A DNA stretch of 55,970 bases from an uncultured Clostridia bacterium (GTDB lineage Bacteria; Bacillota; Clostridia; Oscillospirales; Oscillospiraceae): positions 1 to 55,970 of the forward strand of contig CAMHMK010000002.1 in NCBI GenBank assembly GCA_946186225.1. Reading direction: 5' to 3'. Positions 12,722 to 55,429 of this stretch are shown in pieces (the first letter of the stretch is position 1; each line of letters starts with the position of its first letter). Below the pieces are notes generated by a model. The model was not told the origin of the DNA. It saw nothing but the letters and a program-made list of their open reading frames with translations, and made no database searches. A program made the position numbers and the translations under genes.

Positions 12722-12749
12722 TTGACAGTCGGCGGATTTCTGCTATAAT
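12722..12749 (+). promoter_or_regulatory. Consensus promoter of pgsA
   Basis: TTGACA (12722-12727) and TATAAT (12744-12749) are 16 bases apart. Transcription should begin near 12756. This rules out the in-frame ATG at 12761 as a likely start. Confidence 0.8.
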
Positions 12750-12787
12750 AATGATTTAGAATGTATAAATTTATCTCGGAGGTTCTC

Positions 12788-13366: not shown

Positions 13367-13391
13367 TTCGCAGTCCGTTTCTGCGACGGCC

Positions 13392-13430
13392 AAAGCCGCT
13401 TCATCTGCAGATGAGGCGGCTTTGATTCTT
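13392..13430 (+). terminator. Terminator after pgsA
   Basis: A 15-bp stem, AAAGCCGCTTCATCT (13392-13406) pairing with AGATGAGGCGGCTTT (13409-13423) with one G-T wobble, is followed by TGATTCTTT. Confidence 0.75.
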
Positions 13431-13458
13431 TCCCGGGCTGCAGTTCCCGGGATTTGGA

Positions 13459-13487
13459 TTGACAGACCGTCCGGAATTGGGTATAAT
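13459..13487 (+). promoter_or_regulatory. Consensus promoter of the deaminase gene
   Basis: TTGACA (13459-13464) and TATAAT (13482-13487) are spaced by 17 bases. The start point is about 30 bases before the TTG start codon. Confidence 0.82.
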
Positions 13488-13522
13488 AGGGATAAACCAA
13501 ACTGTACAGGGAGGCGATTCTT

Positions 13523-14818
13523 TTGAAACTCTTGCTCAAGCACGCCGATATTCTGACGCTGGAAGGCGAAGTCTGGCGCACCCTGCGCGACGCTTATCTG
13601 GGCATTGACGGAGACACGATCTGTTGGCTCTCGACCGAGCGGCCCCTGGATGCCTATGATGCGGAAAAGGACCTGCGCGGCAAGCTGCTGCTCCCCGGAT
13701 TGATCAATTGCCACTGCCACAGTCCTATGGTCTTTTTGCGCGGGATCGGGTCCGATCTGAATTTGCAGGACTGGCTCTACCACTATATCTTCCCCACCGA
13801 GGCCCGATGGACCGACCGCGGCGTCCGTGTCGCCAGCGAGCTTGCGATCCTGGAGATGATTGCCAGCGGCATCACCTCCTTTTCGGACATGTATTACCGC
13901 TGCGACCAGACCATCGAGGCCCTCTGCGAGGCCGGGATGAAGGCCAACATCTGCCGCTCCACGCAGGGGCGTCCGGATCTGCCCTTTGAGAAAAACGAGG
14001 ATTGTCGGGAAGGACTCGCTCTGTTCGACCGCTATCAGAACTATAACGAAGGCAAAATCCGCATTGATCTCTGCATTCACGCCGAGTATACCAGTACCCC
14101 GGAGACCATTGAGGCCTACAGCGCCGTGGCATTTGAAAAGGGTGCGGGCATGCACATCCATCTTTCGGAGACGAAATCTGAGCACGAGGCCTGTATCCGA
14201 AAATTCGGCATGACGCCCACGGCCCTGTTTGAAAAACTCGGGACCTTCCGCAACCGGACCACCGCGGCCCACTGTGTCTGGGTCACCGAAGCCGACATGG
14301 AGATCCTGAAGGCCAATGGCGTCAACCCGGTCCACTGCCCGAGCAGCAACATGAAGCTTGGCAGCGGCTTCGCGCCGGTCCAGCAGATGCTCGACAAGGG
14401 CATCAACGTCTGCATCGGCACCGACGGCGCAGCATCGAACAACAATCTCAACATGCTCGAGGAGCTCCATCTGGCCTCTGTGATCCACAACGGGTTCACC
14501 GGAGATCCAACCGTTGTCACCCCCGCCTCCCTTCTGAAAATGGCGACGCGCAATGGCGCCAGACTTCAAGGGCGGCCGGATACCGGCGAGCTGGCCGTAG
14601 GCAAGAAGGCGGATGTCATCGCCGTGGACTTTGACCGTCCGCACCTGATCCCGGCCTTTGACTATCCTGCAATGCTGACCTATTCCGCACAGGCAAGCGA
14701 CGTCTGCTTGACGATGGTAGATGGAAAGGTCCTCTATGAAAATGGTGAATTCAAGACCATCGACGCCGACCGGGTCCGCGCTGAGGCGCGGCGGCTCGTG
14801 CGCGAGCTCTACGACTGA
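13523..14818 (+). CDS. mtaD: Amidohydrolase: MTA/SAH-type deaminase
   Basis: A 431-residue metal-dependent amidohydrolase of the 5-methylthioadenosine/S-adenosylhomocysteine deaminase type. Metal ligands appear in order: H64-C-H66 (INCHCHSPM), the His of HIHLSETKSE, the His of TAAHCVWV and the Asp of CIGTDGAASNNN. The stretch HCPSSNMKLGSG is typical of the MTA/SAH and SsnA branch. It would deaminate SAH, MTA or adenosine to the inosyl products, feeding purine salvage. Translation starts at TTG behind GGGAGG (13509-13514). Because an xdh operon lies upstream, a role in purine breakdown (guanine deaminase or SsnA-like) is an alternative; the motif set favours MtaD. Confidence 0.82.
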   Translation: MKLLLKHADILTLEGEVWRTLRDAYLGIDGDTICWLSTERPLDAYDAEKDLRGKLLLPGLINCHCHSPMVFLRGIGSDLNLQDWLYHYIFPTEARWTDRGVRVASELAILEMIASGITSFSDMYYRCDQTIEALCEAGMKANICRSTQGRPDLPFEKNEDCREGLALFDRYQNYNEGKIRIDLCIHAEYTSTPETIEAYSAVAFEKGAGMHIHLSETKSEHEACIRKFGMTPTALFEKLGTFRNRTTAAHCVWVTEADMEILKANGVNPVHCPSSNMKLGSGFAPVQQMLDKGINVCIGTDGAASNNNLNMLEELHLASVIHNGFTGDPTVVTPASLLKMATRNGARLQGRPDTGELAVGKKADVIAVDFDRPHLIPAFDYPAMLTYSAQASDVCLTMVDGKVLYENGEFKTIDADRVRAEARRLVRELYD

Positions 14819-14871
14819 GGGCAGCGGAACGGAAAACGAAAGGTGCAAATCAAAAAAATTTCGATTTCCTA

Positions 14872-14899
14872 TTTACAAATACAAAAAATGTGGTATAAT
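14872..14899 (+). promoter_or_regulatory. Promoter of the surface-protein gene
   Basis: TTTACA (14872-14877) and TATAAT (14894-14899) are 16 bases apart in an A/T-rich stretch. A leader of about 55 bases precedes AGGAGG and the ATG. Confidence 0.72.
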
Positions 14900-14962
14900 A
14901 CACATGATATAATGCAGACAAAAAAGGATGACCCAACCAGGCATTCAATAAGGAGGATTCAT

Positions 14963-15442
14963 ATGAAAAGACTTTTCGCGATTCTGCTGGCTGTTCTGAT
15001 GTTAACGGCCATTGCCATGCCTGTTTTTGCGGGCGAGAACACTGAGGAGACAGAAGAAGTCGTCAGCCCCACGGAAAAGAAAGAGTACAAGATTGACGTC
15101 TACTACGATCTGGACCAGGTGGTCTATGACGGCCAGGTTCTGGTCACCGTCGGAGAGGATTTCATCTTCACCCCGAAGGATCAAGGCGCTCAGTACATCT
15201 TCGATCACCTTGAGATCGAGGGCGACTACACGGTCACACAGAACGGCAACACCTTTGTGATCCACCCGAACGGCGATCTGGTCATCCATGTGAAGTATAA
15301 GGGCCAGAACCCTCCGACTCCCCAGACAGATGACACCCCGATCTCCCCGAACACCGGTCTGCCCACTGAATGGCTGGTTCTGATCGCGGTGATCGCTGTC
15401 GCCGGCGTTGTTCTCTCCGTCCGCAAGCTGCGCAAGAACTAA
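14963..15442 (+). CDS. Small secreted protein with SPNTG sortase sorting signal
   Basis: A 159-residue exported protein of unknown function. Residues 1-23 form a signal peptide (KR, hydrophobic core, cleavage near VFA-GE). The mature part is acidic at first, then a beta-rich domain of about 90 residues. A proline linker leads to SPNTG, a hydrophobic segment (WLVLIAVIAVAGVVL) and the basic tail SVRKLRKN. This is the architecture of a cell-wall sorting signal. SPNTG matches the (S/P)PxTG class recognised by clostridial class B sortase, as in Clostridioides difficile, rather than LPxTG. No sortase gene is in the window. ATG at 14963 follows a perfect AGGAGG. The gene has its own promoter and terminator. 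Confidence 0.8.
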   Translation: MKRLFAILLAVLMLTAIAMPVFAGENTEETEEVVSPTEKKEYKIDVYYDLDQVVYDGQVLVTVGEDFIFTPKDQGAQYIFDHLEIEGDYTVTQNGNTFVIHPNGDLVIHVKYKGQNPPTPQTDDTPISPNTGLPTEWLVLIAVIAVAGVVLSVRKLRKN

Positions 15443-15453
15443 ATGAATATGGC

Positions 15454-15490
15454 ACTTCCCCGGAAGCATCTGCTTCCGGGGAAGTTTTTT
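15454..15490. terminator. Strong terminator between convergent genes
   Basis: A perfect 15-bp stem ACTTCCCCGGAAGCA (15454-15468) / TGCTTCCGGGGAAGT (15471-15485) is followed by TTTTTT on the plus strand. It probably also serves the end of the convergent minus-strand operon at 15511. Confidence 0.88.
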
Positions 15491-15510
15491 ATGTCAGCAG
15501 CACTCGGCGC

Positions 15511-15801
15511 TTACAGATATTCCTGAATCGCCTTTTGGAAATCCTCGAGCTTCTGGGTATCGCCATCGGCCAGCGCGTGGACGATGCAGTGAGACATATG
15601 CTCCTGAATGATTTCCTTACCAAGCCCGTTCAAGGCTGAACGGGCCGCAGAAATTTGACGCAAAACGTCAGCGCAGTCTTCGTCGCTTTCGATCTGCTTT
15701 TTTACAAATTGAAGATGGCCGATGATGCGCGAGAGCCGGTTGAGCTGGCGCTTTTTTTCATCCGGATCATGATAATGCGCATGGAGTCTGGTTTCATCCA
15801 C
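15511..15801 (-). CDS. csoR: CsoR-family copper-sensing repressor (orphan copy)
   Basis: A 96-residue all-helical repressor of the CsoR/RcnR/FrmR family. The Cu(I) ligand pattern of CsoR is exact: C43, H68 and C72, with the 25 and 4 residue spacings of Mycobacterium CsoR. The N-terminus is rich in histidine (HAHYHD), which might add metal contacts. Start is a GTG at 15801 behind AAAGGAG. Unlike the copy at 39403, it lies last in a long housekeeping directon and next to no copper gene. Its target, and whether it senses copper or another thiophilic metal or persulfide, is unknown. Confidence 0.85.
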   Translation of the reverse strand: MDETRLHAHYHDPDEKKRQLNRLSRIIGHLQFVKKQIESDEDCADVLRQISAARSALNGLGKEIIQEHMSHCIVHALADGDTQKLEDFQKAIQEYL

Positions 15802-15833
15802 AGTGGTAACGCTCCTTTCACGGGCAGCGGATT

Positions 15834-16339
15834 TTATTTCCCAAAGCGAAGACGCCAGTACTTTTGGAGTCTGGCAAGTACAAGGTCATAGAGAAAAAAA
15901 GCGAGGTTGCCAAGCAGCAGCAGGACGATCAGCCAGACTGGCCCGGATTCCTTCAGCTCCCGAACCAGGGCATCCAGCTGAAGCAGGAAAATCAGCACGG
16001 TGTAGGCTGCCGCCACGGCAACGTGGAAGATGGCGAGCTTCGCCAGAAATCGGGGCAGGGGCCGCAGACGGTCGAGGCGCTGCTTGCCGATCGGGTACCA
16101 GCCCAGGAAGGCGAAGGTCATTGCACTTTCCCGATCCGGGCAAAGCAACAGCCCCAGGACTGCGACCACCGCATACCAACCGATGCAGCCGCTGGCCGGA
16201 AGCCGTTCCAGCAAAGGAATCAGCAGCAGAGAGGCCAGCATCGGCCCTGCAAAGGTGCCGATCCCTATCATCCCGCCCAGGAGCAGGCATACAACGGCAA
16301 GGGCGGCGAGTACGCCGCCCAATGCTACGTCACGGCTCT

Positions 16340-16343
<4 letters not shown>
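15834..16343 (-). CDS. Small polytopic membrane protein, unknown function
   Basis: A 169-residue protein with about five hydrophobic segments (around 8-45, 55-68, 75-85, 105-122 and 135-155). The N-terminal SRDVALGGVLAALAVVCLLL resembles the start of ECF transporter S-components and related small membrane proteins, but I cannot place it in a family. The start codon is GTG, overlapping the stop of the Clp ATPase gene by 4 bases (GTGA). An ECF core module (EcfA1A2T) lies three genes upstream in the same directon, so a substrate-binding S-like role is possible but unproven. Confidence 0.6.
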
Positions 16344-18649
<2,306 letters not shown>

Positions 18650-18677
18650 TCAGTTTCCTTTCCCCCTGCCCGAAAGG

Positions 18678-19871
18678 CTACGGGATATAGAGATGTGCAG
18701 AGCTGTTGCTGAGCAGGAACGCGGTTCCGTCGTCCCGTACCAGTACATTGGTCGCGTCGTGCAGCTCTTCTGTTCGGTAAAAGGTTTTGAGCTTACGGTT
18801 GAGAATCAGAAGCTCACGGTCGGTCAGCAGGGCAACATACCGGTCCTTGACCGATACGTCCCGGATGGCGCCATCGGGAATCGTCTCCGCCAGGAGCTCT
18901 CCGGTATGATCCAGAATCTGCAGGCGCGTGCCGCTGCCTGCGATGTTCTGCTCCAGAACCAGGGCCATGAAGCCGTCTGCGCTGAATTCGTAATCCAGAA
19001 TCGTCTGCCCGGACAGAGCGACGGAGTTGGAGATCTCTCCATCAACGTCAAAGAAGGTCACATTGTCCTGGCCGATGGCACAAAGATGGCTGCGATCTAT
19101 AAACTCCAGATCCAGGATAATCTGATTACCCAGGTCAACCCGGACTGCAGAGCTTCCATCCTCGTCCAGGTCGCTGAGCGCCTCATCGGTTCGAAGAACC
19201 GTGACGCTGGAGCGGTAGACGCTGTCCTCCTCGCCCAGTGTGGCAAGGGCCAGATAGGTCCCACCCTCACTGACCGCACAGGCGTTCAGGTAGCGGGTTC
19301 TGGAGGAAAAACGGAACGTGGGGTCCAGCTTCGGGTTCCGAACCGTGGCGACGGATTTATAACCAGTCTCACTCAGAATATAGGCTGTATAGCCGTCATT
19401 TGAAACGTCGGCGTCAATCACCTCGCCGCTCAAAGCCTCATCCAAGCAAATCCCACCGCTCTCGTCCACAGCGGCCACATAGCTGCTGCCCGGGCTGAAG
19501 CAGAAGCTCACTGCTTCTCCGAAGGTGAGCACCGGCGTCGGGAAGGAGGCCTGCACAAAGGCCTTCTGCTCCCCTTCCAGATCGTAGACGATCATGCCAC
19601 CCTCGCCGGAGACCAACAGACCGCCGCCAAAGGCAGCATAGCCGTTGGCGGAGCCGGCATCGAAGCTGATCACGCCATAGTTTTTCCGGTCCTTTAGGCC
19701 CATATAACGGAAGAAGCGGACGACACTGTCCGTATTGAAGAGCTTCGGAAAGATCAGCGACGCTGCAACCCCGATGGCAATCAAAACAATTGCGACGATC
19801 ACGATAATCTTAAAGGTCCGCAGCGCGCCGCTGCCGCCCGGCGTTCGTTCCGGGGCGTGGTTATCATTCAA
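18678..19871 (-). CDS. Membrane-anchored beta-propeller protein (DUF5711-like)
   Basis: A protein of about 397 residues with one N-terminal membrane segment (FKIIVIVAIVLIAIGVAASL) and a long extracytoplasmic part. This part contains repeated short beta-strand units with patterns such as YDLEGE, FSPGSSYVAAVD, DEDGSSAV and ILDHTGELL. It resembles the DUF5711 / WD40-like proteins of Clostridia, whose function is unknown. I favour a TTG start at 19871, which overlaps the truA stop and follows AAAGGCGG. An ATG at 19898 in the same frame is the alternative. It lies between truA and the Clp gene in one directon. Confidence 0.68.
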   Translation of the reverse strand: MNDNHAPERTPGGSGALRTFKIIVIVAIVLIAIGVAASLIFPKLFNTDSVVRFFRYMGLKDRKNYGVISFDAGSANGYAAFGGGLLVSGEGGMIVYDLEGEQKAFVQASFPTPVLTFGEAVSFCFSPGSSYVAAVDESGGICLDEALSGEVIDADVSNDGYTAYILSETGYKSVATVRNPKLDPTFRFSSRTRYLNACAVSEGGTYLALATLGEEDSVYRSSVTVLRTDEALSDLDEDGSSAVRVDLGNQIILDLEFIDRSHLCAIGQDNVTFFDVDGEISNSVALSGQTILDYEFSADGFMALVLEQNIAGSGTRLQILDHTGELLAETIPDGAIRDVSVKDRYVALLTDRELLILNRKLKTFYRTEELHDATNVLVRDDGTAFLLSNSSAHLYIP

Positions 19872-43979: not shown

Positions 43980-45746
43980 TCAGTCCAACAGGTATTTCAC
44001 ATAGCGCTCGGCCATGGCGTGCCAGAGATCGCGGGCCTCAGGCATCGGAGTGCCGCACGCCTCACGGTAGAGGGCCCAGACGAACCAATAGTAGGCAATG
44101 ATGGCAGTATAGGCCAGGAAGTGGAAGCGTTTTTGTTGGTCTGTCTCCTCGCCGAGATAGGCGTCAATGAAGCGGAGGGCCGTCTCCGGCTCATAGGCAG
44201 CATCCACGATGTAGTAGCCGACGTCGATGCCCGGGTCGGAAAAGCCCGCGTACTCCCAATCGATCAGGATCGTACCGCCGTCGGGGAGCAGCATCCAGTT
44301 GTGGCAATAGGTATCCCCGTGGCAGAAGCAGGGGGCCACGCCATCGCCGGCTGTTTTTTCGCAGAGGGTCCGTATTCCGGCCTTCAGGGAGAGATAGGGA
44401 GCAAAGCAGCCTGGCGTCTTCTGCTCCAGGGCAGTTTCGATCTGTTCCGCGTCCTCCCAAGGCTTCAGACCGTAGTCCGTTTGAACGGGAATGCGGTGCA
44501 GCTCCCGCAGCACCTGCAGAATCCGAAGAGAATCCGCCTCGCTGCGGTAATCCGGCTCCCGGAAGGCAGGCACGAAGCGGGAAATCTTCCAGCCTTCGCG
44601 CTCGTCCATGTAGACGAAGGTGGGGTCGAAGCCCCATTTCCGGGCAAGCTCCAGGGACTGCTTCTCGTGCACCCGGCTGACCAGCAGCTCTGTGCCCGCG
44701 CCGGGATGGCGGTAGATATAGTCCTCGTCCCGGTAGCGGAAGATAAAGGAGGTGTTGGTCAGGCCTTCGCTGATCTTGCGGAAGGAGTGGATTTCGGCCT
44801 CGTCGCAGTGAAAGACGGAGATGATGTTGCCGACGATGCGGCTGTGGGTATGCTTGACGTAGGCACTGTCAAAGCGGCGCAGGTCATCAAAGTAGTCGAA
44901 CTCCACAATGGCCCGGGCCGCGAATCGCTTGTAATACATCGGAGGCAGGCGGTCCAGATTTGCCTGCACCACCCATTCCCAATAGGCGTCCTCCCGTTCC
45001 AGGTCCGGATTCTCGTCAATCAGGCGGAGGAAGGTCTCTGCAAAATCCCGGGACCAGAAGCTATGGCCCAGGACCACCTGACCGCCGGAGCGGCCCTTTT
45101 CCATGCATATGATGCGCCCGTCACTGTCGGTATCCACATACATTTCGGGACTCGGCCCGTCCACGCGGACGCCCGCGTAGAAGGATCGGTACTCGAAGCT
45201 GTGGAAGGGATTTTCAGCAAAATAGTCGTCGCAGGCGCAGACATAGGCGTCCGCCAGCCGTTCCCGCGCGCAGCGGAGGCTGCGGATATTGTTGCAGGTC
45301 ATAAAATCCGGATTGGAGATCAGCTGAACGCCGGGCACCTCCGAGAGATAGGCAAACATCTCCTGCTTATAACCGACCACCACGGTAATATCCTCGATCC
45401 CAGCCTCCCGAAGCTGGGCGATTTGCCGGTCGATCAGGCACTCGCCCTTGACGCGGAACAGACCTTTGGGCAGTTCCAGCGAGAGCGGGATACAGCGGGT
45501 GGAAGGGCCGGCGGCAAGAATCACGGCCCGCTGCACGCGATATGGCGCGAGCGCGGCCATGCCGGCGGGCGTGATGCGCCGGAACTGAGACTCCACAAGC
45601 CCCGCATCAATCAGTGCATTCAGCACCTCCGGCCGCTCGCTCACGCGGTTCAGCTCTACGTCCGAGAAGGATGGCGCTCTGCCCCGCGATTCGTCATAGA
45701 AGGCGTTGAGCAGGGCGAAGGTTTCCGGGGTCAGCACGGTCTTCAT
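43980..45746 (-). CDS. Fusion: winged helix - nucleotidyltransferase - choline/ethanolamine kinase
   Basis: A three-part protein of 588 residues. Residues 1-70 resemble a winged helix-turn-helix. Residues 72-300 are a LicC-type nucleotidyltransferase (AVILAAGPSTR..., LPKGLFRVKG, LIDRQIAQLREAGI). Residues about 310-588 are a LicA-type choline kinase with the Brenner motif CHGDTYCHNW and the metal-binding LIDWEYAG. Kinase plus cytidylyltransferase would turn choline or ethanolamine into the CDP form. The usual GxGxR loop of the first domain is altered to GPSTR, so activity there is uncertain. I chose ATG at 45746, with GAGGGT overlapping the upstream stop. It is the last gene of the glycopolymer operon. 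Confidence 0.82.
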   Translation of the reverse strand: MKTVLTPETFALLNAFYDESRGRAPSFSDVELNRVSERPEVLNALIDAGLVESQFRRITPAGMAALAPYRVQRAVILAAGPSTRCIPLSLELPKGLFRVKGECLIDRQIAQLREAGIEDITVVVGYKQEMFAYLSEVPGVQLISNPDFMTCNNIRSLRCARERLADAYVCACDDYFAENPFHSFEYRSFYAGVRVDGPSPEMYVDTDSDGRIICMEKGRSGGQVVLGHSFWSRDFAETFLRLIDENPDLEREDAYWEWVVQANLDRLPPMYYKRFAARAIVEFDYFDDLRRFDSAYVKHTHSRIVGNIISVFHCDEAEIHSFRKISEGLTNTSFIFRYRDEDYIYRHPGAGTELLVSRVHEKQSLELARKWGFDPTFVYMDEREGWKISRFVPAFREPDYRSEADSLRILQVLRELHRIPVQTDYGLKPWEDAEQIETALEQKTPGCFAPYLSLKAGIRTLCEKTAGDGVAPCFCHGDTYCHNWMLLPDGGTILIDWEYAGFSDPGIDVGYYIVDAAYEPETALRFIDAYLGEETDQQKRFHFLAYTAIIAYYWFVWALYREACGTPMPEARDLWHAMAERYVKYLLD

Positions 45747-45756
45747 CGGCACACCC

Positions 45757-47322
45757 TCACGCCTTGGCCCGCGAAAACAGGCCGCGCAGCATGCTCCCCG
45801 CCACGCCGCCGCGGCAGCTTTGATAAGGCTGGCCGCCCAGAAGGAGCTGCTCTACGCGGAGCTCGCGCAGACGGTGCAGTTCCATCTTGCAGGGGTTTTC
45901 GGAGAGAATAACCATGTCCGCGATCTTTCCGACCTCCAGGCTTCCCCGCTCGGCATCGTCAAAGGTCGCGCGGCAGCCGTTGATCGTACACATGCGCAGG
46001 GCCTCCTGTACGGTCAAGGCCTGGGCGGGATTGGCGTGGTTGACGGCCTTGTCGATCCAGTCGATCGGATTGGGGGCAGTACAGGGGGCGTCGGAGCCCG
46101 CGGCGATGGAGATGCCCAGATCCCAGAAGGTACGCAGCGGATTGAGGGCCGATGCGCGGTCCTTGCCGAGGATCTGCTCCAGATATTCGTCCGGTTCCTG
46201 CTTCCAGTTGATGAAGGCGCTCTGCACAGGGAGCTGGATGCCGTAGTCCCGGCAGATCTCCAGGCCGGCCACGGTGGGCAGACAGGCATGGATGATGCCG
46301 TGACGGTGGTCCTTACGCGGGAAGTCATCCAGGGCGGCGCGCAACGCGCGGGTCGCCTGGTCAAAGGCACGGTCGCCGATGGCGTGCATCTCGATCTGCA
46401 GGCCGGCGCGGTTGGCCTTCTTGCAGAACTCAATCACCTTTTCATCGGAATAATAGAGTACGCCGTCTGTGCCGTCGTCAACATAGGGGGCGTTCATAGC
46501 CGCGTCATGGGAGCCAAAGCAGCCGTCCAGGGCGCAGGCAAAGCAGCCGCCGATGCGGGGCAGCTTCCGGCGCGTGGCAGCGCGAACGTCCAGAGACTGG
46601 GGGAAAACGCGGATCTGGAAGCCGTTTTTCAAGGAGCGGGCAAAGAGCTGCTCCAGGGTGATATCCAGGTTTGCCACGAAGCCGATGCCGCTGACCGTAT
46701 GGACCATACCGATGCCCCGGGATGCCTCGAAGTCCACGGCGTTCTGCAGATTTTTCACCAGGTCCACCAGAGAAAGTGAGCCCGTGATGTAGTCAGAGAC
46801 CTTGAAGAAAGCCTCCTGGTTCATCTCGCCCGTATCGGGGTGATAGCCGCGCAGAGGAGATAGCTTCTTTTCCAGCTTCTTGAGCAGAGGCGTATTGACA
46901 ATGCAGGCGTGGCCGTCATACTTGACCATCATCATCTCGCGGTCGGGGCAGACGGCGTCCAGCTCGGCGCGAGAGAGCAGCTTGCCCTCCCGGACCGAAT
47001 AAGGGGATGCGCCAAAGGCGATCAGGGTCTTGGCCGTGGAGCGGCGGACAAAGTCGCGGATCATATCCGAGATCTCGCGGTTGGAGGCCGCGTCCATGAC
47101 ATTCAGACCGGCATGGAAGGCGGAGAAGGATGCCAGGTGCTGGTGGGTGTCCACAAAGCTTGGGCAGAGGGCCTTTGCACCGAGCTCTACCTTCGGGGCA
47201 GCTTGGAATCGCTCCGGCAGCTCATTGCCGACGAAGATGATCTTGCCCTCATCTTCGACCAGCCAGCGGAACGTCTCATCCGAGGCGTTGACGGAAAGGA
47301 TATCGCCGTGATAGCATTTCAT
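45757..47322 (-). CDS. Amidohydrolase family 3 (YtcJ-like) protein
   Basis: A 521-residue metal-dependent hydrolase of the PF07969 type. The metal site THQH (H60, H62), the family motif MHAIGDRA and the active-site Asp region AAGSDAPCTAPNP are present, and the C-terminal KIADMVILSENP is typical. Members hydrolyse N-acyl or cyclic amide groups, and the substrate here is unknown. It lies within the glycopolymer operon (2 bases after the nucleotidyltransferase, 10 bases before the kinase fusion), so it may deacylate an amino-alcohol precursor. ATG at 47322 has GGAGG with 7-base spacing. Confidence 0.8.
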   Translation of the reverse strand: MKCYHGDILSVNASDETFRWLVEDEGKIIFVGNELPERFQAAPKVELGAKALCPSFVDTHQHLASFSAFHAGLNVMDAASNREISDMIRDFVRRSTAKTLIAFGASPYSVREGKLLSRAELDAVCPDREMMMVKYDGHACIVNTPLLKKLEKKLSPLRGYHPDTGEMNQEAFFKVSDYITGSLSLVDLVKNLQNAVDFEASRGIGMVHTVSGIGFVANLDITLEQLFARSLKNGFQIRVFPQSLDVRAATRRKLPRIGGCFACALDGCFGSHDAAMNAPYVDDGTDGVLYYSDEKVIEFCKKANRAGLQIEMHAIGDRAFDQATRALRAALDDFPRKDHRHGIIHACLPTVAGLEICRDYGIQLPVQSAFINWKQEPDEYLEQILGKDRASALNPLRTFWDLGISIAAGSDAPCTAPNPIDWIDKAVNHANPAQALTVQEALRMCTINGCRATFDDAERGSLEVGKIADMVILSENPCKMELHRLRELRVEQLLLGGQPYQSCRGGVAGSMLRGLFSRAKA

Positions 47323-47324
47323 AC

Positions 47325-48257
47325 TCATACCTCCGATTTTGAAGAACGGTAGTTTTCGTAAGAGGGATCCAGCTCCACGAGCTCGAAGAAATTGTCGATC
47401 TCCATGATATCGGACTTGGCGCATGGGCGGATCTCCACGCGGTATCGGTCCCGATAGAGGACCAGGGGAATGAATTCCCAGAAGAGGTCCTTCCCTTCCG
47501 GCTCGGTCTCATAGGCGCGGCGGAAATCTGCGCGCAGCTTCGCACTGTCGGCCCGGTCCCAATAGGCAATTTCATACTGATTGAAGCAGTAGACGCCGCC
47601 CTTCTGATAGTGACCGGTGAAGCCGTTTTCGAAGGTGAAGCACCAGTCGTCGGTCTCCTCGGCATAGGAGGCCAGGTAGTTGGTCCGATAGTGGTACTTG
47701 TGGATGACCTTGGGATTCGTTACCAGCAGATCCCCGGCGCAGATATAGCAGTTGTCAATCTTCTCCCCTGCCGCCAGGGCCGAAGAAATGTTGTTTTCAG
47801 TCTCGTAGGCGTCGTTATCCCGGAACTGCAGGAAGGGATATTTTTCCAGCAGGACGTCAAAGTCCGCCTTGCGATAGCCGCGCACGATCGTGATATCCCG
47901 GATGTCTCTGGCGATCAGGGCGTCAAGAAGACGGTCGATGATGCGCACGCCGTTCACCCGAACCAAGGGCTTTGGCGTATCAAGCGTGACCGGGGCCATC
48001 CGCGATCCGAAGCCTGCGGCAAAGATGACGGCCCGCTCCACCCGATAGGGCTCCAGGGCCGCCAGCCCTGCGGCTGTGATGCGCAGCTCATCGCCGGATG
48101 CCTCCAGAAGTCCGCGCTCGGTCAACGAGGTGCGGACCCGGATGATCTGCGTGCCGGACAGAGCCAGGGCGTCGGTCAGACTTCGCCAAGGATACACGCC
48201 GGGGCCGTTTTCGGCCACATGCGCCAGCAGATCAAATTCATATCGAGAAAGCTCCAT
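47325..48257 (-). CDS. Winged helix - LicC-type nucleotidyltransferase
   Basis: A 310-residue protein. Residues 1-70 form a winged helix-like domain related to the one in the kinase fusion (SLTERGLLEASGDELRITAAGLAAL). Residues 72-300 are a nucleotidyltransferase with an intact nucleotide loop AAGFGSRMAPVT, the lysine motif TPKPLVRVNG and the metal site region CAGDLLVTNP. It probably transfers CMP from CTP to a phospho-alcohol such as phosphocholine or phosphoethanolamine. GAGGGG precedes the ATG. The paralogous kinase fusion two genes downstream has a degraded loop, so this copy may supply the activity. Confidence 0.83.
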   Translation of the reverse strand: MELSRYEFDLLAHVAENGPGVYPWRSLTDALALSGTQIIRVRTSLTERGLLEASGDELRITAAGLAALEPYRVERAVIFAAGFGSRMAPVTLDTPKPLVRVNGVRIIDRLLDALIARDIRDITIVRGYRKADFDVLLEKYPFLQFRDNDAYETENNISSALAAGEKIDNCYICAGDLLVTNPKVIHKYHYRTNYLASYAEETDDWCFTFENGFTGHYQKGGVYCFNQYEIAYWDRADSAKLRADFRRAYETEPEGKDLFWEFIPLVLYRDRYRVEIRPCAKSDIMEIDNFFELVELDPSYENYRSSKSEV

Positions 48258-48284
48258 CCTGATCCCCTCTAAATCCTTGCGGTT

Positions 48285-49532
48285 TTAGTTGTTCTCTTGC
48301 GGCTGCTCCTGCTCCAATTCGCGCAGCTTCTCCATAAGATAGTCCGCAGCGCGGACGGCGCCTTCTCCGGGGTGCATCCAGACCTCCTCGCGGGCACGGT
48401 CGCGTGCCTTCTGATAGGCAGGATTGTCCCGCAGATCGTCGATGGACTCCTTGATCCGGTCCAACATCCCCTCATCCAGGCACTTGCCGATGCGGGGCAG
48501 GGTCTCCAGCGTCCAGAGCTCGTCCTTGAGCCAGTAGGAGTCGTAAGGGCCCTTGTCAAATTTGGCGTTGTGATAGATGACAGGCTTGTCAAAGACCAGC
48601 GCGTAATCGAAGATTACGCCTGAGAAGTCGGAGATCATCACGTCGGAGCTGCGCAGCACGTCGAAGTTGTCCGTGTCGCGGTTCCATGAGAAACGGTCGG
48701 TATCAGGAAATTGCTTCATCAGGCGGTCGATCATCTCCGTCTCTGACTGGAAGGACTGGGGATGCGGACGAACGACGACGCGGTAACCGGTGTCGATCAG
48801 CGCCTGGAGAATGCGCTCGCCGTAAAGGCTCAGGAGGGCACTCTTGCCCCAGGAGGGAGCGAGCAGGACCGTGAACTCGTGCTGCGGCAGGGCCGGAGCC
48901 TCGGCCAGCCGCTTGCGCATGACGTCCAGATAGGGAATGCCGACGTAGCAAACCTCCTTGGCCGGAAGATTTCGCTGGCCCTCCAGGTCCCGGAGCTGAT
49001 CCTCCTGGAATTTGCCGGACAGGAGCAGGGCGTCGTAGTAGTCGACGCCGAACATCCGGTATCCGGCCAGGTTTCCGGCAGCATGGAGGATGTGGACGTA
49101 CCAGCGCACGTCCTTGGAGCGCTTCCACTGATAGACGTCCAGGCCGGGCGTCGTGGAAAGCAGGATGTCGGTGTGCAGGACGTTGAGCACGGCAAAGGCC
49201 TTGTCCCCCTTGCCGATGAACTCGGCATGGACGTGCGGAAGGTCTGCCTTCAGGGCGGGGTCGTCCTCCGAGGCCGTCAGATAGGAGACGTCCTGGCCGC
49301 GGGCATTCAGCTCCCGGCAGATCGGGGAAAAGACGTTCCAGTAGCGCTTGTCATCCGAGAAGATCGTGAGCGCAGCCTTCTGCTCGGCCTTGGCCTTGCC
49401 GCCTGCAGCACGGAAGCGCAGCTTCATCCACAGGGCACGCGCAGCGTAGATGCCTGCGCCGAATACGCCCATCAGGACCGTAAACAGCATGCTGCCCGTG
49501 CCGGGATCGATATATAAAAACGTTGGATACAT
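48285..49532 (-). CDS. CDP-glycerol glycerophosphotransferase-like (TagF/TagB family)
   Basis: A 415-residue membrane-associated transferase. One N-terminal membrane segment lies in YIDPGTGSMLFTVLMGVFGA. The GT-B Glyphos_transf domain shows VRPHPQS, SDVMISDFSGVIFDYAL and DKPVIYH, as in TagF/TarF. It would add glycerol-phosphate or a similar CDP-activated polyol to a lipid-linked chain. AAAGGAG precedes ATG 49532. It is the second gene of the operon headed by the YidC fusion, with a 26-base gap, and is the clearest sign that the locus builds a teichoic-acid-like polymer. Confidence 0.85.
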   Translation of the reverse strand: MYPTFLYIDPGTGSMLFTVLMGVFGAGIYAARALWMKLRFRAAGGKAKAEQKAALTIFSDDKRYWNVFSPICRELNARGQDVSYLTASEDDPALKADLPHVHAEFIGKGDKAFAVLNVLHTDILLSTTPGLDVYQWKRSKDVRWYVHILHAAGNLAGYRMFGVDYYDALLLSGKFQEDQLRDLEGQRNLPAKEVCYVGIPYLDVMRKRLAEAPALPQHEFTVLLAPSWGKSALLSLYGERILQALIDTGYRVVVRPHPQSFQSETEMIDRLMKQFPDTDRFSWNRDTDNFDVLRSSDVMISDFSGVIFDYALVFDKPVIYHNAKFDKGPYDSYWLKDELWTLETLPRIGKCLDEGMLDRIKESIDDLRDNPAYQKARDRAREEVWMHPGEGAVRAADYLMEKLRELEQEQPQENN

Positions 49533-49558
49533 TTGTTTTTCTCCTTTGACGATCCGGC

Positions 49559-52333
49559 TTAGCGATAGCCGATGTATTCCCAGTTTTCTCCCACGCGGAC
49601 GTCGTCGTGGACGGAGAACCACTTGCAGGGCAGGAAGGCAACGCCGTTGTTCTTTGCAACATTCCAGTTGTAGGAATAGGTCGCGTGCTGCTCCGGCGCG
49701 TACTTCATCTCATCGGTGATCGGCTTTCCGGTGAATGGGTTCACCGGGTTCTCGATCAGGCCGGAGAAGGCGATTGTCGGCGTGTCGGCGTTCGTCATGA
49801 AGCGCTCATCCACGGTAAAGCCCTTGCTGTTGAAGTCCTTTACCATCAGCATGCACTGGAGCATCATCATGTCCTCGACGTCCTTGTCGTCATCCACGTC
49901 ATGCAGCAGGTCCCGGAAGAATTGCAGATACCAGCCGTGGTCGGAAACGATGATGATGCGCGTATTGTCGTAGAGATCGTTCTCGCGCAGATAGTCGAAC
50001 CATTCTCCCAGCGCAAGGAAGGCCGCCATATTCGCATGATAGTGCGTTACCTGCATCTCGTTGCTCAGATAGAGGGTGCTGCCGTCGGCCGCGGTGCGGG
50101 GATTGTGCGCGGCTTCATAGTCGGTATCGTCCACATAGGCGGCGGGAACATAGTCCGGCTCCTGCAGGAGGACCGGGCGGTGCGGAAGCTCGTTGTCCAT
50201 GGCGAAGAAGGTGTTGCCCGAGGATTCGATCCGCGTGATTGAAGGAAGGTTCTTGAGCACCATGTAATTGTTCATGAAGCCCTTGTCAAATCCGGAGGCC
50301 GTGTAATCGGAGAGCATCGTCTGAACGGAGGTATCCGCCTCCTCCTGGACGGCCGCGGCGTCGGCCCTGTTGTAGTTGCCGTTGTCATAGAGCGTCTTCT
50401 GCAGGATCAGAGGTGCCGACTTGAAGAGGCTGTAGCAGAAGAAGTTTCGGTTCAGGAGGAAGTCTGTATCCTCCTGGGATCTGGTGCCGCGGTTGAATCT
50501 GCCGTCCTTGGCAAAGTAGGTGTGCATCCCGGGGTAATCGTCAAAGATGCTGTAGTCGGAGGGCTTTTTGTAGCCGCAATAGGGCAGGTCGCAGATCGTG
50601 ACCTCGTAGCCCGCATGGTAGAACAGGTCCGGCATCAGCTTCATCGACTCGTCGTGCTTTTCCTGGAGGAGCTGATCGGTTCTGGCGTTCATCTCTTCCG
50701 GCGTGTACTCATAGCCGCCGAAGACGCCGGTCACGCCGAAATTCGTGCATACGCCGTAGCTCATCGAGTTCGGGTAGTAGGTAAAGCCGTCAAAGGCTTC
50801 CTTGAGCTCCGGCTTTTCGTTCATCATGTAGGGGACCATGGAGGCAACTGCGCGATCCATCATCAGGACGACCACATTTTTGCCGGTCTTGCTCAGGCGG
50901 ATCTGAAGCTGCTCATCCGTCCGTTCCATCTGCGTCCGGATGGCGGAATACTCTTTTTGGATCCCGAACACATTGGTAACCGACATTCCAAAGGCAGCAA
51001 AGCAGAGTGCGCCGACCAAAAGGCGTAGCATCGCCTGCTTTTTCTTCCAGATCACATAGAGCAGGGCGGTCAAGGCCAGAAGGACACCTGCATTGAGGAA
51101 CATCTGACCGACGGTGTTCTTGGGATGGACGTCAAAGCGAAGCATCTCGGAGAGGTTGCCGTAGCCGGTGCCGAAGAAGAGATAGTCCACGGCAGCGCCA
51201 ACAGCCAGGGCAGAGATTGCAAGGCCTAAGATGCGCTTGCCCCTGCCGTCTGCCAGGTGATAAAAAATCTCGAACCAGACCAGGAAGGTACCCGCCGCCA
51301 ACAGCGCAGAATTCAGCAAATAATTCAGCGGAGAACGGGGCGCCAGATTGTCAACGAATTCCGAGGTGGAATCCCGGATGACGCCGGACGGGATCAGCAG
51401 GCCGGTCAGGATCATCAGGAGAAGGCAGCCCAGGAAGAAGCCAAAGCGTTCCGGCTTTTCGACCCGAACGGCGGGACGGGCAGCGCGGGTTTTGGCGCGG
51501 AGGGCCAGGAGCAGCGGCAGCTGCAGAGCCAGCAGGATCAGCGTCAGGAAGAACTTCATCCTCGCTGTCTCCACAGTGTGGAAGAAGAGGAAATAAACTG
51601 CCCCAAAAACGCTGACGGCAGAGAAGATAATTCCCAGCACCAGTCCGGGCCGCTTCATCTTGTAGAAGACGTTTTTCAGCAGGGAGAACAGGTTGTTGAG
51701 GGTCCAGTAGAAAACGAGACCTGCCGGGGAATTATAGAGCAGGACAAGGAACACCACGGCCAGGCCGTAGGTCTGGAGCTTGCTCTTGAGGGGGAAGCCC
51801 CGCATGTAGATGGACGCGGAGATATAGTTGATGGCCGTCATCAGAATGGGCAGAAGATTCAGCGTAAGGCCGAAGATCTTCAGCATTCCGTCCGGCGCGC
51901 CCATGTCGGCGATCGGTCCGAAGCTCATGCCGCGCAGCAGCTGGAGGCCGGAAAGGAACCGATAAGCCGCAGTGAAGAAGGGTACCTGTAAAAGCAGAGA
52001 GATCGAGCCCTTGAAGACATCCGTCTGCTTGTAGTCGTTCTGACGGTAGTAGGTCTGGAGCATCATGAAGCGCTCGTTGCCCTTGAAGGTCTTCTTGATA
52101 TGGGCGACGCCATCCTGCATTTGCGCAGCCTTGTCGCGCTGTTCCCGCTGCAGGGCGTCTGCGCGGCGATAGAGCGGCAAAACCAGGAAATTGATGGCCA
52201 GGCTCAGAAAAATAATGGCAATTCCGTGGTTGCCGACCAGGCGGTCTGCAATTGCGAAGATTACCTCAAACATCAGCTCCAGCGGCCCAATCAGCAGCTT
52301 GTAGAGCGCGGTTCCGAGAGACAAGTGAATCAT
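49559..52333 (-). CDS. Fusion: YidC/Oxa1-like membrane domain - sulfatase/phosphotransferase domain
   Basis: A protein of about 924 residues. The N-terminal 240 residues follow the YidC/Oxa1 pattern with five membrane segments (GIAIIFLSLAINFLVLPLY, then LLLQVPFFTAAYRFL). The conserved groove arginine aligns with Asn 48. Further membrane segments span about 240-460. The outer C-terminal 440 residues are an alkaline-phosphatase-superfamily domain: VVVLMMDRAV (first metal Asp), FGGYEYTPEEMN, LYDNTRIIIVSDHGW (DH metal site, about residue 796) and a later EQHATYSY histidine. LtaS, EptA and similar enzymes use this fold to transfer phospho-groups. ATG 52333 has an AAAGG directly before it; TTG 52324 is a better-spaced alternative. 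It heads the operon. Confidence 0.82.
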   Translation of the reverse strand: MIHLSLGTALYKLLIGPLELMFEVIFAIADRLVGNHGIAIIFLSLAINFLVLPLYRRADALQREQRDKAAQMQDGVAHIKKTFKGNERFMMLQTYYRQNDYKQTDVFKGSISLLLQVPFFTAAYRFLSGLQLLRGMSFGPIADMGAPDGMLKIFGLTLNLLPILMTAINYISASIYMRGFPLKSKLQTYGLAVVFLVLLYNSPAGLVFYWTLNNLFSLLKNVFYKMKRPGLVLGIIFSAVSVFGAVYFLFFHTVETARMKFFLTLILLALQLPLLLALRAKTRAARPAVRVEKPERFGFFLGCLLLMILTGLLIPSGVIRDSTSEFVDNLAPRSPLNYLLNSALLAAGTFLVWFEIFYHLADGRGKRILGLAISALAVGAAVDYLFFGTGYGNLSEMLRFDVHPKNTVGQMFLNAGVLLALTALLYVIWKKKQAMLRLLVGALCFAAFGMSVTNVFGIQKEYSAIRTQMERTDEQLQIRLSKTGKNVVVLMMDRAVASMVPYMMNEKPELKEAFDGFTYYPNSMSYGVCTNFGVTGVFGGYEYTPEEMNARTDQLLQEKHDESMKLMPDLFYHAGYEVTICDLPYCGYKKPSDYSIFDDYPGMHTYFAKDGRFNRGTRSQEDTDFLLNRNFFCYSLFKSAPLILQKTLYDNGNYNRADAAAVQEEADTSVQTMLSDYTASGFDKGFMNNYMVLKNLPSITRIESSGNTFFAMDNELPHRPVLLQEPDYVPAAYVDDTDYEAAHNPRTAADGSTLYLSNEMQVTHYHANMAAFLALGEWFDYLRENDLYDNTRIIIVSDHGWYLQFFRDLLHDVDDDKDVEDMMMLQCMLMVKDFNSKGFTVDERFMTNADTPTIAFSGLIENPVNPFTGKPITDEMKYAPEQHATYSYNWNVAKNNGVAFLPCKWFSVHDDVRVGENWEYIGYR

Positions 52334-52381
52334 CCTTTGCTTTTCCCATAACGGGTGTTTTTTAGAATTAACCAATAATGT

Positions 52382-52410
52382 ATCTTATAAAAAAATACCC
52401 CGCTTGTCAA
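52382..52410 (-). promoter_or_regulatory. Promoter of the YidC-fusion operon
   Basis: A perfect TTGACA (52405-52410) and TAAGAT (52382-52387) on the minus strand are 17 bases apart. The predicted start near 52375 excludes the longest reading frame, whose TTG lies at that point. Confidence 0.72.
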
Positions 52411-52472
52411 GTCTGAAAACATGTTTGCGTGCCATTTCGCGTCAATGCTCTCTTGTTTTTTCATTTTTCCGG

Positions 52473-52501
52473 TTGAATCTCGTCGGCTGCCGTGATATAA
52501 T
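52473..52501 (+). promoter_or_regulatory. Divergent promoter of the nucleotidyltransferase-PLP gene
   Basis: TTGAAT (52473-52478) and TATAAT (52496-52501) are 17 bases apart. The two divergent -35 boxes are about 60 bases apart, so a shared regulator could control both arms. Confidence 0.72.
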
Positions 52502-52556
52502 CCAATCAATCTCTCTGCAGACGATTTCAATCATTATTCAGATACAGGTGAACGAT

Positions 52557-54362
52557 ATGCAAGCAGTTATCCTCGCCGCCGGTATGGGCAAACGCCTGAA
52601 GCATTTGACGGCAAACAATACCAAGTGTATGGTTAAGGTCAACGGGGTTCCGATGATCGATCGGATGCTCTCCCAGCTCGACAGCCACCATCTGTCCCGG
52701 ATCATCCTGGTTGTCGGATATGAGGGAGAGAAGCTCAAGGACCACGTCCGCAGCCTCTCCATCGAGACTCCGATCATTTTTATCGACAATCCGGTCTATG
52801 ACAGGACCAACAACATCTACTCCCTGGCGCTGGCCCGGGAGAACCTCTGCGCGGAGGACACCCTCCTGCTCGAATCCGATCTGATTTTTGAGGATTCGGT
52901 CCTGGATCTCCTTCTGGAGGATCCGCGTCCGAATCTGGCGCTGGTCGATAAGTATGAGAGCTGGATGGACGGAACCTGCGTCCTGCTGGACGAGGACGAC
53001 GGAATCGACTCCTTTGTTCCCAAGCAGAGCTTCCGATACGACGAGATCGCCAGCTATTATAAGACCGTCAACATCTATAAGTTCAGTCGGGAGTTCTCTC
53101 AGAAGCAGTATGTGCCGTTCCTTGAGGCATACGTCAAGGCGCTGGGCGAAAACGAATACTATGAGCAGGTGCTGCGCGTGATCACCATGCTCAACCACAC
53201 CTCCATCCGGGCCAGGCGCCTGTCCGGACAGCGCTGGTACGAGATCGATGACGTTCAGGACCTGGATATTGCTGAGTCCATCTTCACTGACAATATCTCT
53301 GCGCGCGCAGCCCGGCTCCAGGCTAGGTTCGGGGGCTACTGGCGTTACCCGGGGATGCTGGATTTCTGCTATCTGGTCAACCCATATTTCCCGCCCAAAC
53401 GGATGAGCGACGAGATCAAAGCCAGCTTCGAAACCCTGCTGACCCAGTATCCCTCCGGCATGCACATCAATTCCCTTCTGGCAGCCAAGGATTTTGGCCT
53501 GGCGGAGCGGAGCATTCTGGTGGGAAACGGCGCGGCAGAGCTGATCAAGTCCTTTATGGAGCGGCTCACCGGCAAGGTCGGAATCATTCGTCCGAGCTTT
53601 GAGGAGTATGGTCATCGCTATGAGAATCAGGTCGAATACCGACCGGAGAATCCCGACTTCTCCTACACTGCCGACGATGTCATTCAGTTCTTTTCCGTGC
53701 ATCCGGTCCAGAATCTGGTCCTGATCAATCCGGACAATCCAAGCGGAAACTATATCCCGAAGGAAGGAATACTCCGAATCGTCTCCTGGGCAAAGACGCA
53801 GACGATGACGCTTCTGGTGGACGAGAGCTTCGTGGACTTTGCCGACGAGGAGGACAGCAGTCTGCTCCATCAGACTCTGCTCGACCGGAATCCCCATCTG
53901 TTCGTAATGAAAAGTATCTCCAAGTCCTACGGCGTTCCCGGGCTGCGGCTCGGCATTTTGGCCTCCGGGGATGAAACTGCGATCGCGGAGATGAAAAAAG
54001 ACGTCTCGATCTGGAACATCAATTCCTTCGCTGAATTCTATCTGCAGATCGAGGAAAAATATCAGTCTGATTACCGGGCCGGCCTGATTCGCTTCCGTGC
54101 AGAGCGCGCCAGATTCGCCGCGAAGCTGGCTGAAATTCCCGGTCTGCGGGTGATTCCCTCCCAGGCAAACTATCTGATGGTGGAACTGACCAAGCCGGAG
54201 CAGAAGGCCAAGGACCTCCTGGCCTCCCTCCTGGCAAACTACAACCTGCTGGTCAAGGAGCTGACCGCAAAAACGGGCGGCCAATATCTCCGTTTCGCCG
54301 TTCGGGATACCAACGATAACGACCGCCTGCTGGCGGCATTGCGGAAGGAGCTTGCAATATGA
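52557..54362 (+). CDS. Fusion: LicC-type nucleotidyltransferase - PLP-dependent aminotransferase/decarboxylase
   Basis: A 601-residue bifunctional protein. Residues 1-235 are a nucleotidyltransferase (MQAVILAAGMGKRLKHLT, NTKCMVKVNGVPMIDRML, and a metal-site region LLLESDLIFED). Residues about 255-601 are a fold-type I PLP enzyme of the HisC/CobD branch: VGNGAAELIKSF, INPDNPSGNYIP, LLVDESFVDF and the Schiff-base lysine in SISKSYGVPGLRLG (about residue 456). Threonine- or serine-phosphate decarboxylase-type chemistry would yield a phospho-amino-alcohol that the first domain could activate with CTP. An amino transfer is the alternative. ATG 52557 overlaps no gene and starts exactly at the domain. 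The stop overlaps the dehydrogenase start. Confidence 0.83.
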   Translation: MQAVILAAGMGKRLKHLTANNTKCMVKVNGVPMIDRMLSQLDSHHLSRIILVVGYEGEKLKDHVRSLSIETPIIFIDNPVYDRTNNIYSLALARENLCAEDTLLLESDLIFEDSVLDLLLEDPRPNLALVDKYESWMDGTCVLLDEDDGIDSFVPKQSFRYDEIASYYKTVNIYKFSREFSQKQYVPFLEAYVKALGENEYYEQVLRVITMLNHTSIRARRLSGQRWYEIDDVQDLDIAESIFTDNISARAARLQARFGGYWRYPGMLDFCYLVNPYFPPKRMSDEIKASFETLLTQYPSGMHINSLLAAKDFGLAERSILVGNGAAELIKSFMERLTGKVGIIRPSFEEYGHRYENQVEYRPENPDFSYTADDVIQFFSVHPVQNLVLINPDNPSGNYIPKEGILRIVSWAKTQTMTLLVDESFVDFADEEDSSLLHQTLLDRNPHLFVMKSISKSYGVPGLRLGILASGDETAIAEMKKDVSIWNINSFAEFYLQIEEKYQSDYRAGLIRFRAERARFAAKLAEIPGLRVIPSQANYLMVELTKPEQKAKDLLASLLANYNLLVKELTAKTGGQYLRFAVRDTNDNDRLLAALRKELAI

Positions 54363-55429
54363 AAATCTGTGTGATCGGCGGCGGCAATATCGGTACGCTC
54401 TGCGCCTCAGAGCTGGCCGCCGGCGGCTGTGAGGTCGCCATGTACACCTCCCGCCCGGAAACCTGGTCGAGGATTCTTCGTGTTTACGATGCAGATGAAA
54501 ACCTGCTCCTGGAGACCGACCGCGTAAGGGCGACGGACGATTTGGCCGAGGCCGTCTCCGGCGCGACCCAGATCTGGATCACGCATCCCGCGTTTCTGTT
54601 TGAAGCCCTGGCAAAGCAGCTGCTGCCTCATGTCAGGGCAGGCCAGATGCTGCTGGTCATCCCCGGCAGCGGCGGCGCGGAGTTCTCCTTTCAGCCTCTG
54701 CTGGAAAAAGGCTTGATCCTCTGCGGTCTGCAGCGTGTCCACTGCATCGCCCGGTTGAAGAAAAAAGGCGAGAGCGTCTACGCTCTCGGACGAAAGCCGT
54801 CTCTGGCCCTCGGTGCGATCCCGGCCGGAGCAGCTCCCCTCTGGGCCGCGGAGATCGCGCGTCTGCTCAGTATTCCCTGCGAGGCCCTGCCCAATTACCT
54901 GTCTGTCACGCTGACGCCCTCCAACCCCATCCTGCACACTTCCCGCCTGTATTCCATGTTCCGCGATTACGTCCCAGGAATGGTCTGGGATCACAACATC
55001 CGTTTCTATGAGGAATGGACGGACGAGGCCAGCCGGATCATGCTGGCCTGTGACGCAGAGCTCCAAGCACTCTGCGAGCTTCTGCCGCTCGACCTGCAGG
55101 ACGTCAAGTCCCTGCGCGTACACTATGAGTCCGATACTGCTGAGAAGATGACCGCCAAGATCCGGGGGATCCGCGCCTTCCGCGGCATCACCAGTCCGAT
55201 GAAGCAAACCGAGGCGGGATGGATCCCTGATTTTGAATCCCGGTACTTCACGGCCGACTTCCCCTTTGGGCTGAAGATTATCCGTGACATCGGCTCGCTG
55301 GCCGGTGTTCCGATGCCGAACATCAACTGCCTCTGGGAGTGGTATGAGAAGACCGCACGTCTGCCGGGCGGCGCCAGTTTTCAGCTGCGGGAAGCATCCG
55401 TGGAGGCCCTGGTCAGGCTGTACGCATGA
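54359..55429 (+). CDS. Opine/octopine-type NAD(P) dehydrogenase
   Basis: A 356-residue dehydrogenase of the octopine/nopaline family. The N-terminal Rossmann motif is GGGNIGTLCASELAAGG. The C-terminal PF02317-like domain carries the catalytic His in TPSNPILHTSRLY, with a nearby VWDHNIRFYEEW. Such enzymes reductively couple an amino group to a keto acid. Translational overlap (ATGA) with the nucleotidyltransferase-PLP fusion indicates a shared pathway, possibly formation of an opine-like or amino-alcohol substituent for the polymer; this is inference. It may instead act as a simple ketopantoate-reductase-like dehydrogenase. Confidence 0.8.
   Translation: MKICVIGGGNIGTLCASELAAGGCEVAMYTSRPETWSRILRVYDADENLLLETDRVRATDDLAEAVSGATQIWITHPAFLFEALAKQLLPHVRAGQMLLVIPGSGGAEFSFQPLLEKGLILCGLQRVHCIARLKKKGESVYALGRKPSLALGAIPAGAAPLWAAEIARLLSIPCEALPNYLSVTLTPSNPILHTSRLYSMFRDYVPGMVWDHNIRFYEEWTDEASRIMLACDAELQALCELLPLDLQDVKSLRVHYESDTAEKMTAKIRGIRAFRGITSPMKQTEAGWIPDFESRYFTADFPFGLKIIRDIGSLAGVPMPNINCLWEWYEKTARLPGGASFQLREASVEALVRLYA

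Follow-up and report, generated by a model that had tools for sequence, protein, structure and literature searches.

Seven adjacent genes, G1 to G7, in the 55,970-nt stretch of DNA analysed here (the window, which is the entire contig C2) form a real, conserved and LicD-free version of CDP-based surface tailoring, built around the bifunctional protein G6. The cluster is probably of Lic/Pnt type, activating several phospho-amino-alcohols as CDP derivatives and attaching them, without LicD, to a glycopolymer of the cell surface; candidate acceptors are a teichoic acid, a capsule or a glycolipid. What we observed directly is the gene content, the conservation of modules and active sites and the pattern of LicD replacement. 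The features of the locus are as follows.

G1, 43980-45752, minus strand: LicC-type cytidylyltransferase plus LicA-type choline kinase (LicCA arrangement)
G2, 45757-47322, minus strand: amidohydrolase (Amidohydro_3)
G3, 47325-48257, minus strand: stand-alone LicC-type cytidylyltransferase with a weak N-terminal winged-helix match
G4, 48285-49532, minus strand: TagF-like GT-B phospho-alcohol transferase (Glyphos_transf)
G5, 49559-52333, minus strand: YidC-like domain (60KD_IMP), further TM helices and an extracytoplasmic alkaline-phosphatase-superfamily domain
Divergent intergenic region, 52334-52556, 223 nt: promoter-like sites on both strands (consensus match only)
Promoter-like site, 52410-52382, minus strand: TTGACA-17-TAAGAT (consensus match only)
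Promoter-like site, 52473-52501, plus strand: TTGAAT-17-TATAAT (consensus match only)
G6, 52557-54362, plus strand: LicC/PntC-type cytidylyltransferase fused to a CobD/SMUL_1544-type PLP domain
G7, 54359-55429, plus strand: octopine-dehydrogenase-family reductase (Octopine_DH; octopine dehydrogenase 3c7a, E 9.9e-23)

A profile search of the window recovered all predicted domains in the seven genes, which are arranged as two divergent transcription units, G5-G4-G3-G2-G1 on the minus strand and G6-G7 on the plus strand, and domain and PDB matches confirmed the gene inventory given in the initial annotation. The starts of G6 (ATG 52557), G5 (ATG 52333), G4 (ATG 49532) and G2 (ATG 47322) were reset from homologue alignments. 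With these starts, the gaps inside the minus-strand unit were about 25-26, 27, 2 and 4 nt, and G6 and G7 overlapped by 4 nt. A check of neighbourhood conservation had been proposed for the locus; G4-G5, G6-G7 and G3-G2-G1 were indeed conserved as neighbours elsewhere, and their recurrence in unrelated genomes indicates more than chance. As claimed earlier in setting the cluster apart from the pneumococcal lic pathway, LicD (PF04991) was absent from the window and from the assembled genome (1.8 Mb, 148 contigs, ~90% complete), and neither TarIJ nor TacF occurred within the cluster, the range searched for them. At the other end of the window, the genes at positions 1266-12236 look like a cluster for selenium-dependent purine catabolism, with molybdenum hydroxylases (xanthine-dehydrogenase-like) and two large Fe-S/flavin oxidoreductases (Fer4_20 + Pyr_redox_2).

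The initial annotation had derived a phospho-amino-alcohol from a PLP enzyme; this found support in the neighbourhoods described below and is refined here, the PLP enzyme and a nucleotidyltransferase being one polypeptide, G6 (residues numbered from the Met at 52557). Its PLP half is an Aminotran_1_2 domain for which CobD was the best family (TIGR01140, 177 bits, below the cut-off of that model), and its best PDB match was 6oux (E 2.1e-41), which we take to be SMUL_1544, presumably a serine-phosphate decarboxylase, followed by CobD (1lc5, E 3.2e-35). Seven residues, N275, Y298, N394, D422, K456, R464 and R579, are common to G6, SMUL_1544 and CobD, so that the PLP lysine (K456) and aspartate (D422) are retained. 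The N-terminal half matched LicC (54.6 bits) and Tde-PntC (52.8 bits) equally. In PntC, two Glu residues (Tde Glu104 and Glu196) contact the primary amine (Rice et al., PMC6697681). The equivalent pair in G6, E106 and E203, was found in 88 of 88 alignment rows, the position of E203 resting on that alignment, and also in six distant relatives from Fusobacterium, Priestia, Rahnella, Erwinia, Gloeothece and Pseudonocardia.

Judged by these comparisons, the best candidate function for G6 is that of a phosphoserine decarboxylase/ethanolamine-phosphate cytidylyltransferase, which would take phosphoserine through phosphoethanolamine to CDP-ethanolamine. Making such a group for a capsule by serine-phosphate decarboxylation has precedent, because C. 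jejuni Cj1436, from a capsule locus, is reported to convert serine phosphate to ethanolamine phosphate (PMC12409886); Cj1436 is compared with G6 here by role. The SMUL_1544/CobD family also includes transaminases and threonine-phosphate decarboxylases, which counts against a firm substrate for G6, and an aminopropanol or serinol analogue is conceivable as its product. Under the same Lic-type logic, G6 would then yield CDP-1-amino-2-propanol from phosphothreonine, the substrate decarboxylated by CobD, or CDP-serinol by transamination of dihydroxyacetone phosphate, in keeping with C. jejuni Cj1437, which makes serinol phosphate (PMC12409886). Position 567, Lys in all fusions and Arg in both CobD and SMUL_1544, speaks for such variants, whereas the closest structure is that of SMUL_1544, which acts in norcobamide synthesis, and the PntC-like amine pocket suits a small 2-aminoethyl group; we therefore consider them rather unlikely.

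We regard as very improbable the proposal that G6 is a phosphonate enzyme, that is, an AEP transaminase with PntC as in Treponema denticola Tde1415, serving aminoethylphosphonate tailoring. It would account for the N-terminal half matching Tde-PntC as well as LicC, for the PepM, Ppd and AEP transaminase genes in the window's genome, and for a triple fusion of LicC-type, cytidylyltransferase and PepM domains at some G5 loci. However, the PLP domain of G6 is of the class I/II CobD type, not class V, and a separate class V transaminase stands in the phosphonate operon of both this genome and locus L105. Linkage to PEP mutase, expected of PntC, was not found either: PepM occurred near G6, as fusions, in only 6 of 86 loci, and the PepM gene of the window's own genome lies on another contig.

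The distribution of G6 was examined by scanning the genomes of 84,980 species, which gave at least 527 relatives; the neighbourhood set comprised the best 80 of these at least 527 loci plus 6 from whole genomes (86 loci). These were mostly from rumen and gut Clostridia, the remainder including Coriobacteria, Treponemataceae/Sphaerochaetaceae and Varibaculum. Pfam was used to identify LicD, the ornithine-cyclodeaminase (OCD) family, the PepM triple fusion, flippases and glycosyltransferases. Among the 86 loci, which are phylogenetically non-independent, LicD was near G6 in 33, mostly as the adjacent gene; an opine dehydrogenase in 28 (directly adjacent, on either side, in 26); an OCD-family protein in 9, mostly at +1; G4 in 20 and G5 in 13, every G5 accompanied by G4; and an intact G3-G2-G1 block in 4. 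One locus, L085, which joins G4, G5 and G6, belongs to Lachnospiraceae XBD2001, a culturable commensal. In a sample of 295 genomes of the order, all 7 other genomes with a full-length G6 carried LicD against a background of 73/295, and the window's genome had full-length G6 without LicD in its assembled part (~90% complete).

On plasmids of Erwinia rhapontici and Rahnella, the gene right after the G6 relative encodes a CDP-alcohol phosphatidyltransferase (PF01066). The next two genes after the Gloeothece relative encode a methyltransferase and LicD, and LicD is near the Fusobacterium relative. A CDP-alcohol product of G6 is thus independently supported, because a CDP-alcohol phosphatidyltransferase or LicD stands beside plasmid relatives, and neighbourhood evidence likewise upheld the earlier claim that several small phospho-alcohols are CDP-activated. 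A sugar-nucleotide or amino-sugar reading of G6, considered separately, was rejected on account of the CobD-type PLP half and the LicD and CDP-alcohol transferase neighbours. The Erwinia rhapontici and Rahnella loci (L162 and L159, ~7716-18700) also hold HAD phosphatases, an ATP-grasp protein and an MFS transporter beside the G6 relative and phosphatidyltransferase, and this gene set is a conserved plasmid cluster. On plasmid pBM700 of Priestia megaterium (L158, 4534-12638), the cluster around a G6 relative looks like one for a small molecule: it encodes two ATP-grasp proteins and an acetyltransferase of the AAC(3) type, and it includes a DXP reductoisomerase gene, here carried on a plasmid, that might confer self-resistance to a phospho-natural product. 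No LicC-decarboxylase fusion was found in the literature within reach of our search, which lay mostly outside subscription journals; G6 is a widespread bifunctional enzyme, apparently undescribed in the literature searched.

G7, given no role in the initial annotation, is part of the G6 module. In other loci, its slot is taken by a protein of the OCD/mu-crystallin family, with imine reductases and SbnB among the nearest named families. No locus had both G7 and the OCD protein within 6 genes of G6 (27 loci with G7, 9 with OCD; P 0.03). Since both families act on C=N bonds, forming or reducing them, N-alkylation is the natural reading, and G7 or the OCD protein probably N-alkylates the amine of the G6 product. 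N-(1-Carboxyethyl)ethanolamine phosphate is present in some Proteus O-antigens; our own literature search, mostly outside subscription journals, returned no opine-type ethanolamine phosphate in polysaccharides. Imine reductases beside G5 were rare (1 of 13 loci), so that the pairing of G5 and G7 in the window is unusual, which counts against the explanation favoured here.

G4 is the sole Glyphos_transf protein of the window's genome (PF04464, 49 bits against a cut-off of 22), and its RPHP and DxS motifs are invariant. Its AlphaFold model (pLDDT 81) has a GT-B fold and matched TagF (3l7m) with Z 20.4 over 344 residues; it also matched UDP-GlcNAc 2-epimerases with Z up to 22, another point against the favoured explanation. 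G5 has 11 hydrophobic segments, and its C-terminal half gave a weak Sulfatase match and an alkaline-phosphatase-superfamily fold in the predicted structure (pLDDT 80), with Z of about 20 to PbgA/YejM and sulfatases. LtaS and EptA were not among the 50 structure matches listed for this model, which is no evidence against either. Residues D507, T544, H732, D812 and H813 (numbered from TTG 52375) were invariant in 35 of 35 sequences, and T544 is the putative nucleophile with an Asp/His metal site. In the YidC-like part, the position that aligns with the groove Arg (E. coli R366/B. halodurans R72) is Asn, Ser or Gln in all 35 G5 homologues, and an insertase role is unlikely because of this replacement. 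G5 was also rejected as the housekeeping YidC, given the loss of that Arg and the presence of another YidC on contig C26 of the same genome. The literature searched, with subscription journals mostly out of reach, held no YidC-sulfatase fusion, and no plasmid-borne relatives of G5 were found.

In the 295-genome sample, G5 was present in 9 genomes, always with G4. The 8 other G4-G5 loci of this sample had separate LicC and LicA genes in 4 (3 of them with an EamA transporter of the LicB type as well), a LicCA gene in 1, a G3-like gene in 2 and no such partner in 1; LicD was at none of the 8. At G6 loci, LicD coincided with G5 in 0 of 13, compared with LicD in 33 of 86 overall (P 0.001-0.005), and by gene order 6 of the 13 look like one clade, for an effective count of ~8. 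This exclusion is at the level of the locus, as a LicD match occurred in 3 of 9 G5-containing genomes and no genome-wide exclusion was found. The fixed G4-G5 pair probably replaces LicD, because it never stands with LicD beside G6 and because it occurs in LicD-free licC-licA(-EamA) operons; the transfer route by TagF-like and YidC-fusion proteins, proposed initially, is supported by these neighbourhoods.

The pair might instead be a teichoic-acid polymerase of LtaS/TagF-like type that builds a polyol-phosphate chain, the CDP-substituents being added by other enzymes elsewhere. The Glyphos_transf motifs of G4 and the inclusion of LtaS in the superfamily of G5, with its invariant Thr and metal residues, agree with this, but no gene for CDP-glycerol or CDP-ribitol synthesis adjoins G4-G5, the genes found with the pair encode choline-type kinases and LicC/PntC-type cytidylyltransferases, and several loci carry 3-4 tandem copies of G5; we judge a polymerase unlikely. 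In L044, L055, L060, L065 and L072, the 3-4 tandem G5 paralogues lie in one block together with G6, one or two copies of G4, and the triple fusion, which there consists of LicC-type, cytidylyltransferase and PEP mutase (PepM) domains. Loci in which a single G4 accompanies three or four tandem G5 copies would fit one maker of a donor lipid serving several transferases.

G1 unites both enzymes of Lic-1 type, a LicC-type cytidylyltransferase (1jyk, E 4.5e-33) and a LicA-type kinase (choline kinase 4r77, E 1.9e-25) with the motifs CHGD..N and IDWEYA, and would probably make CDP-choline (or a CDP-alkanolamine) from the free alcohol. Its N-terminal extension resembles that of G3, which matched LicC (1jyk) with E 1e-19; both are clearly nearer LicC than Tde-PntC, unlike G6. 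The winged-helix match of G3 (HTH_27) was below the Pfam cut-off, and a G3-like protein in L138 matched HTH_IclR. As a guess, G3 activates a third substituent. G2, likewise given no role in the initial annotation, has no hydrophobic segment and is fixed in position between G3 and G1, and this order is kept in L057, L074, L081 and L093 with 66-70% identity in G2, the basis for its reset start. Outside the block, relatives of G2 stand in unrelated contexts, and the neighbourhood therefore gives no inference on its function. Past G3-G2-G1 in L057 (17155-21129), two proteins of 686 and 633 aa, the first with weak similarity to G5 and the second with distant similarity to G4, are possibly a divergent version of the G4-G5 pair.

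In L123 (contig C3:36700-50576 of the window's genome), positions 8285-13170 of the locus hold genes for a class V AEP transaminase, a fusion of cytidylyltransferase and PepM that contains the EDKxxxxxNS motif, and phosphonopyruvate decarboxylase (Ppd), together with an iron alcohol dehydrogenase on the opposite strand; no LicC-type PntC lies beside this operon. Because of these phosphonate genes, the substituents may also include AEP or hydroxyethylphosphonate, and G3 possibly activates a phosphonate that the genome can make.

We infer every substrate in the following scheme, as well as the order of G4 before G5. The PLP domain of G6 would decarboxylate O-phospho-L-serine to phosphoethanolamine, and its N-terminal domain would convert this with CTP to CDP-ethanolamine. 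G7 would condense the free amine reductively; the likely co-substrate is pyruvate or a different 2-oxo acid, and the product would be an N-carboxyalkyl-ethanolamine phosphate. G1 would phosphorylate choline (or a similar alcohol) and form CDP-choline, and G3 would activate a third phospho-compound, possibly a phosphonate. At the cytosolic face, G4 would use the CDP donor to load a lipid or glycolipid with the phospho-group; G5, in the membrane, would then transfer that group, by way of its putative Thr nucleophile, to the acceptor glycan on the extracytoplasmic side. Taken as a whole, the specific combination, namely a widespread and hitherto undescribed G6 class of bifunctional, phosphoserine-fed CDP-ethanolamine synthases, a LicD-independent two-step G4-G5 transfer in which a repurposed YidC-like domain handles the lipid, and G7 or OCD making an N-carboxyalkyl-ethanolamine phosphate, is tentative, being possible rather than probable.

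The cluster resembles Lic-1 (licABCD of Streptococcus pneumoniae and Haemophilus) in its choline kinase and LicC-type cytidylyltransferase, and in the EamA transporter of related loci; unlike Lic-1, it has G4/G5 in the transfer position in place of LicD, two further cytidylyltransferase domains and a domain for de novo amino-alcohol synthesis. With Pnt phosphonyl tailoring (Tde1415 PntC-AEPT fusion; PMC6697681) it shares a cytidylyltransferase fused to a substrate-making PLP enzyme and the Glu pair at the amine, whereas Pnt uses a class V AEP transaminase and G6 usually has LicD and imine reductases rather than PepM as neighbours. G6 is like CobD and SMUL_1544 in PLP-domain sequence and active-site residues, and differs from them and from Cj1436 in its fusion to a cytidylyltransferase, in Lys for one Arg and in lying outside a cobamide operon. 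G5 appears to share with LtaS, EptA, PptA and PbgA the arrangement of TM helices followed by an extracytoplasmic domain of the alkaline-phosphatase superfamily with a putative Thr nucleophile and putative metal ligands; unlike them, it has an additional YidC-like domain at the N terminus, where the groove Arg is lost, and a constant TagF-like partner.

Choline and ethanolamine decorations shape the contact of gut bacterial surface polymers with host lectins, antibodies and phages. If the proposed scheme is true, a single protein would produce CDP-ethanolamine from phosphoserine in many Clostridia of gut and rumen and in scattered bacteria of other phyla; these organisms would need no external ethanolamine, and some of them would attach such groups without LicD. 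The scheme would also account for large numbers of genes whose present annotation is just 'aminotransferase class I/II' or 'YidC', and it would make the G4-G5 pair a directly testable replacement for LicD.
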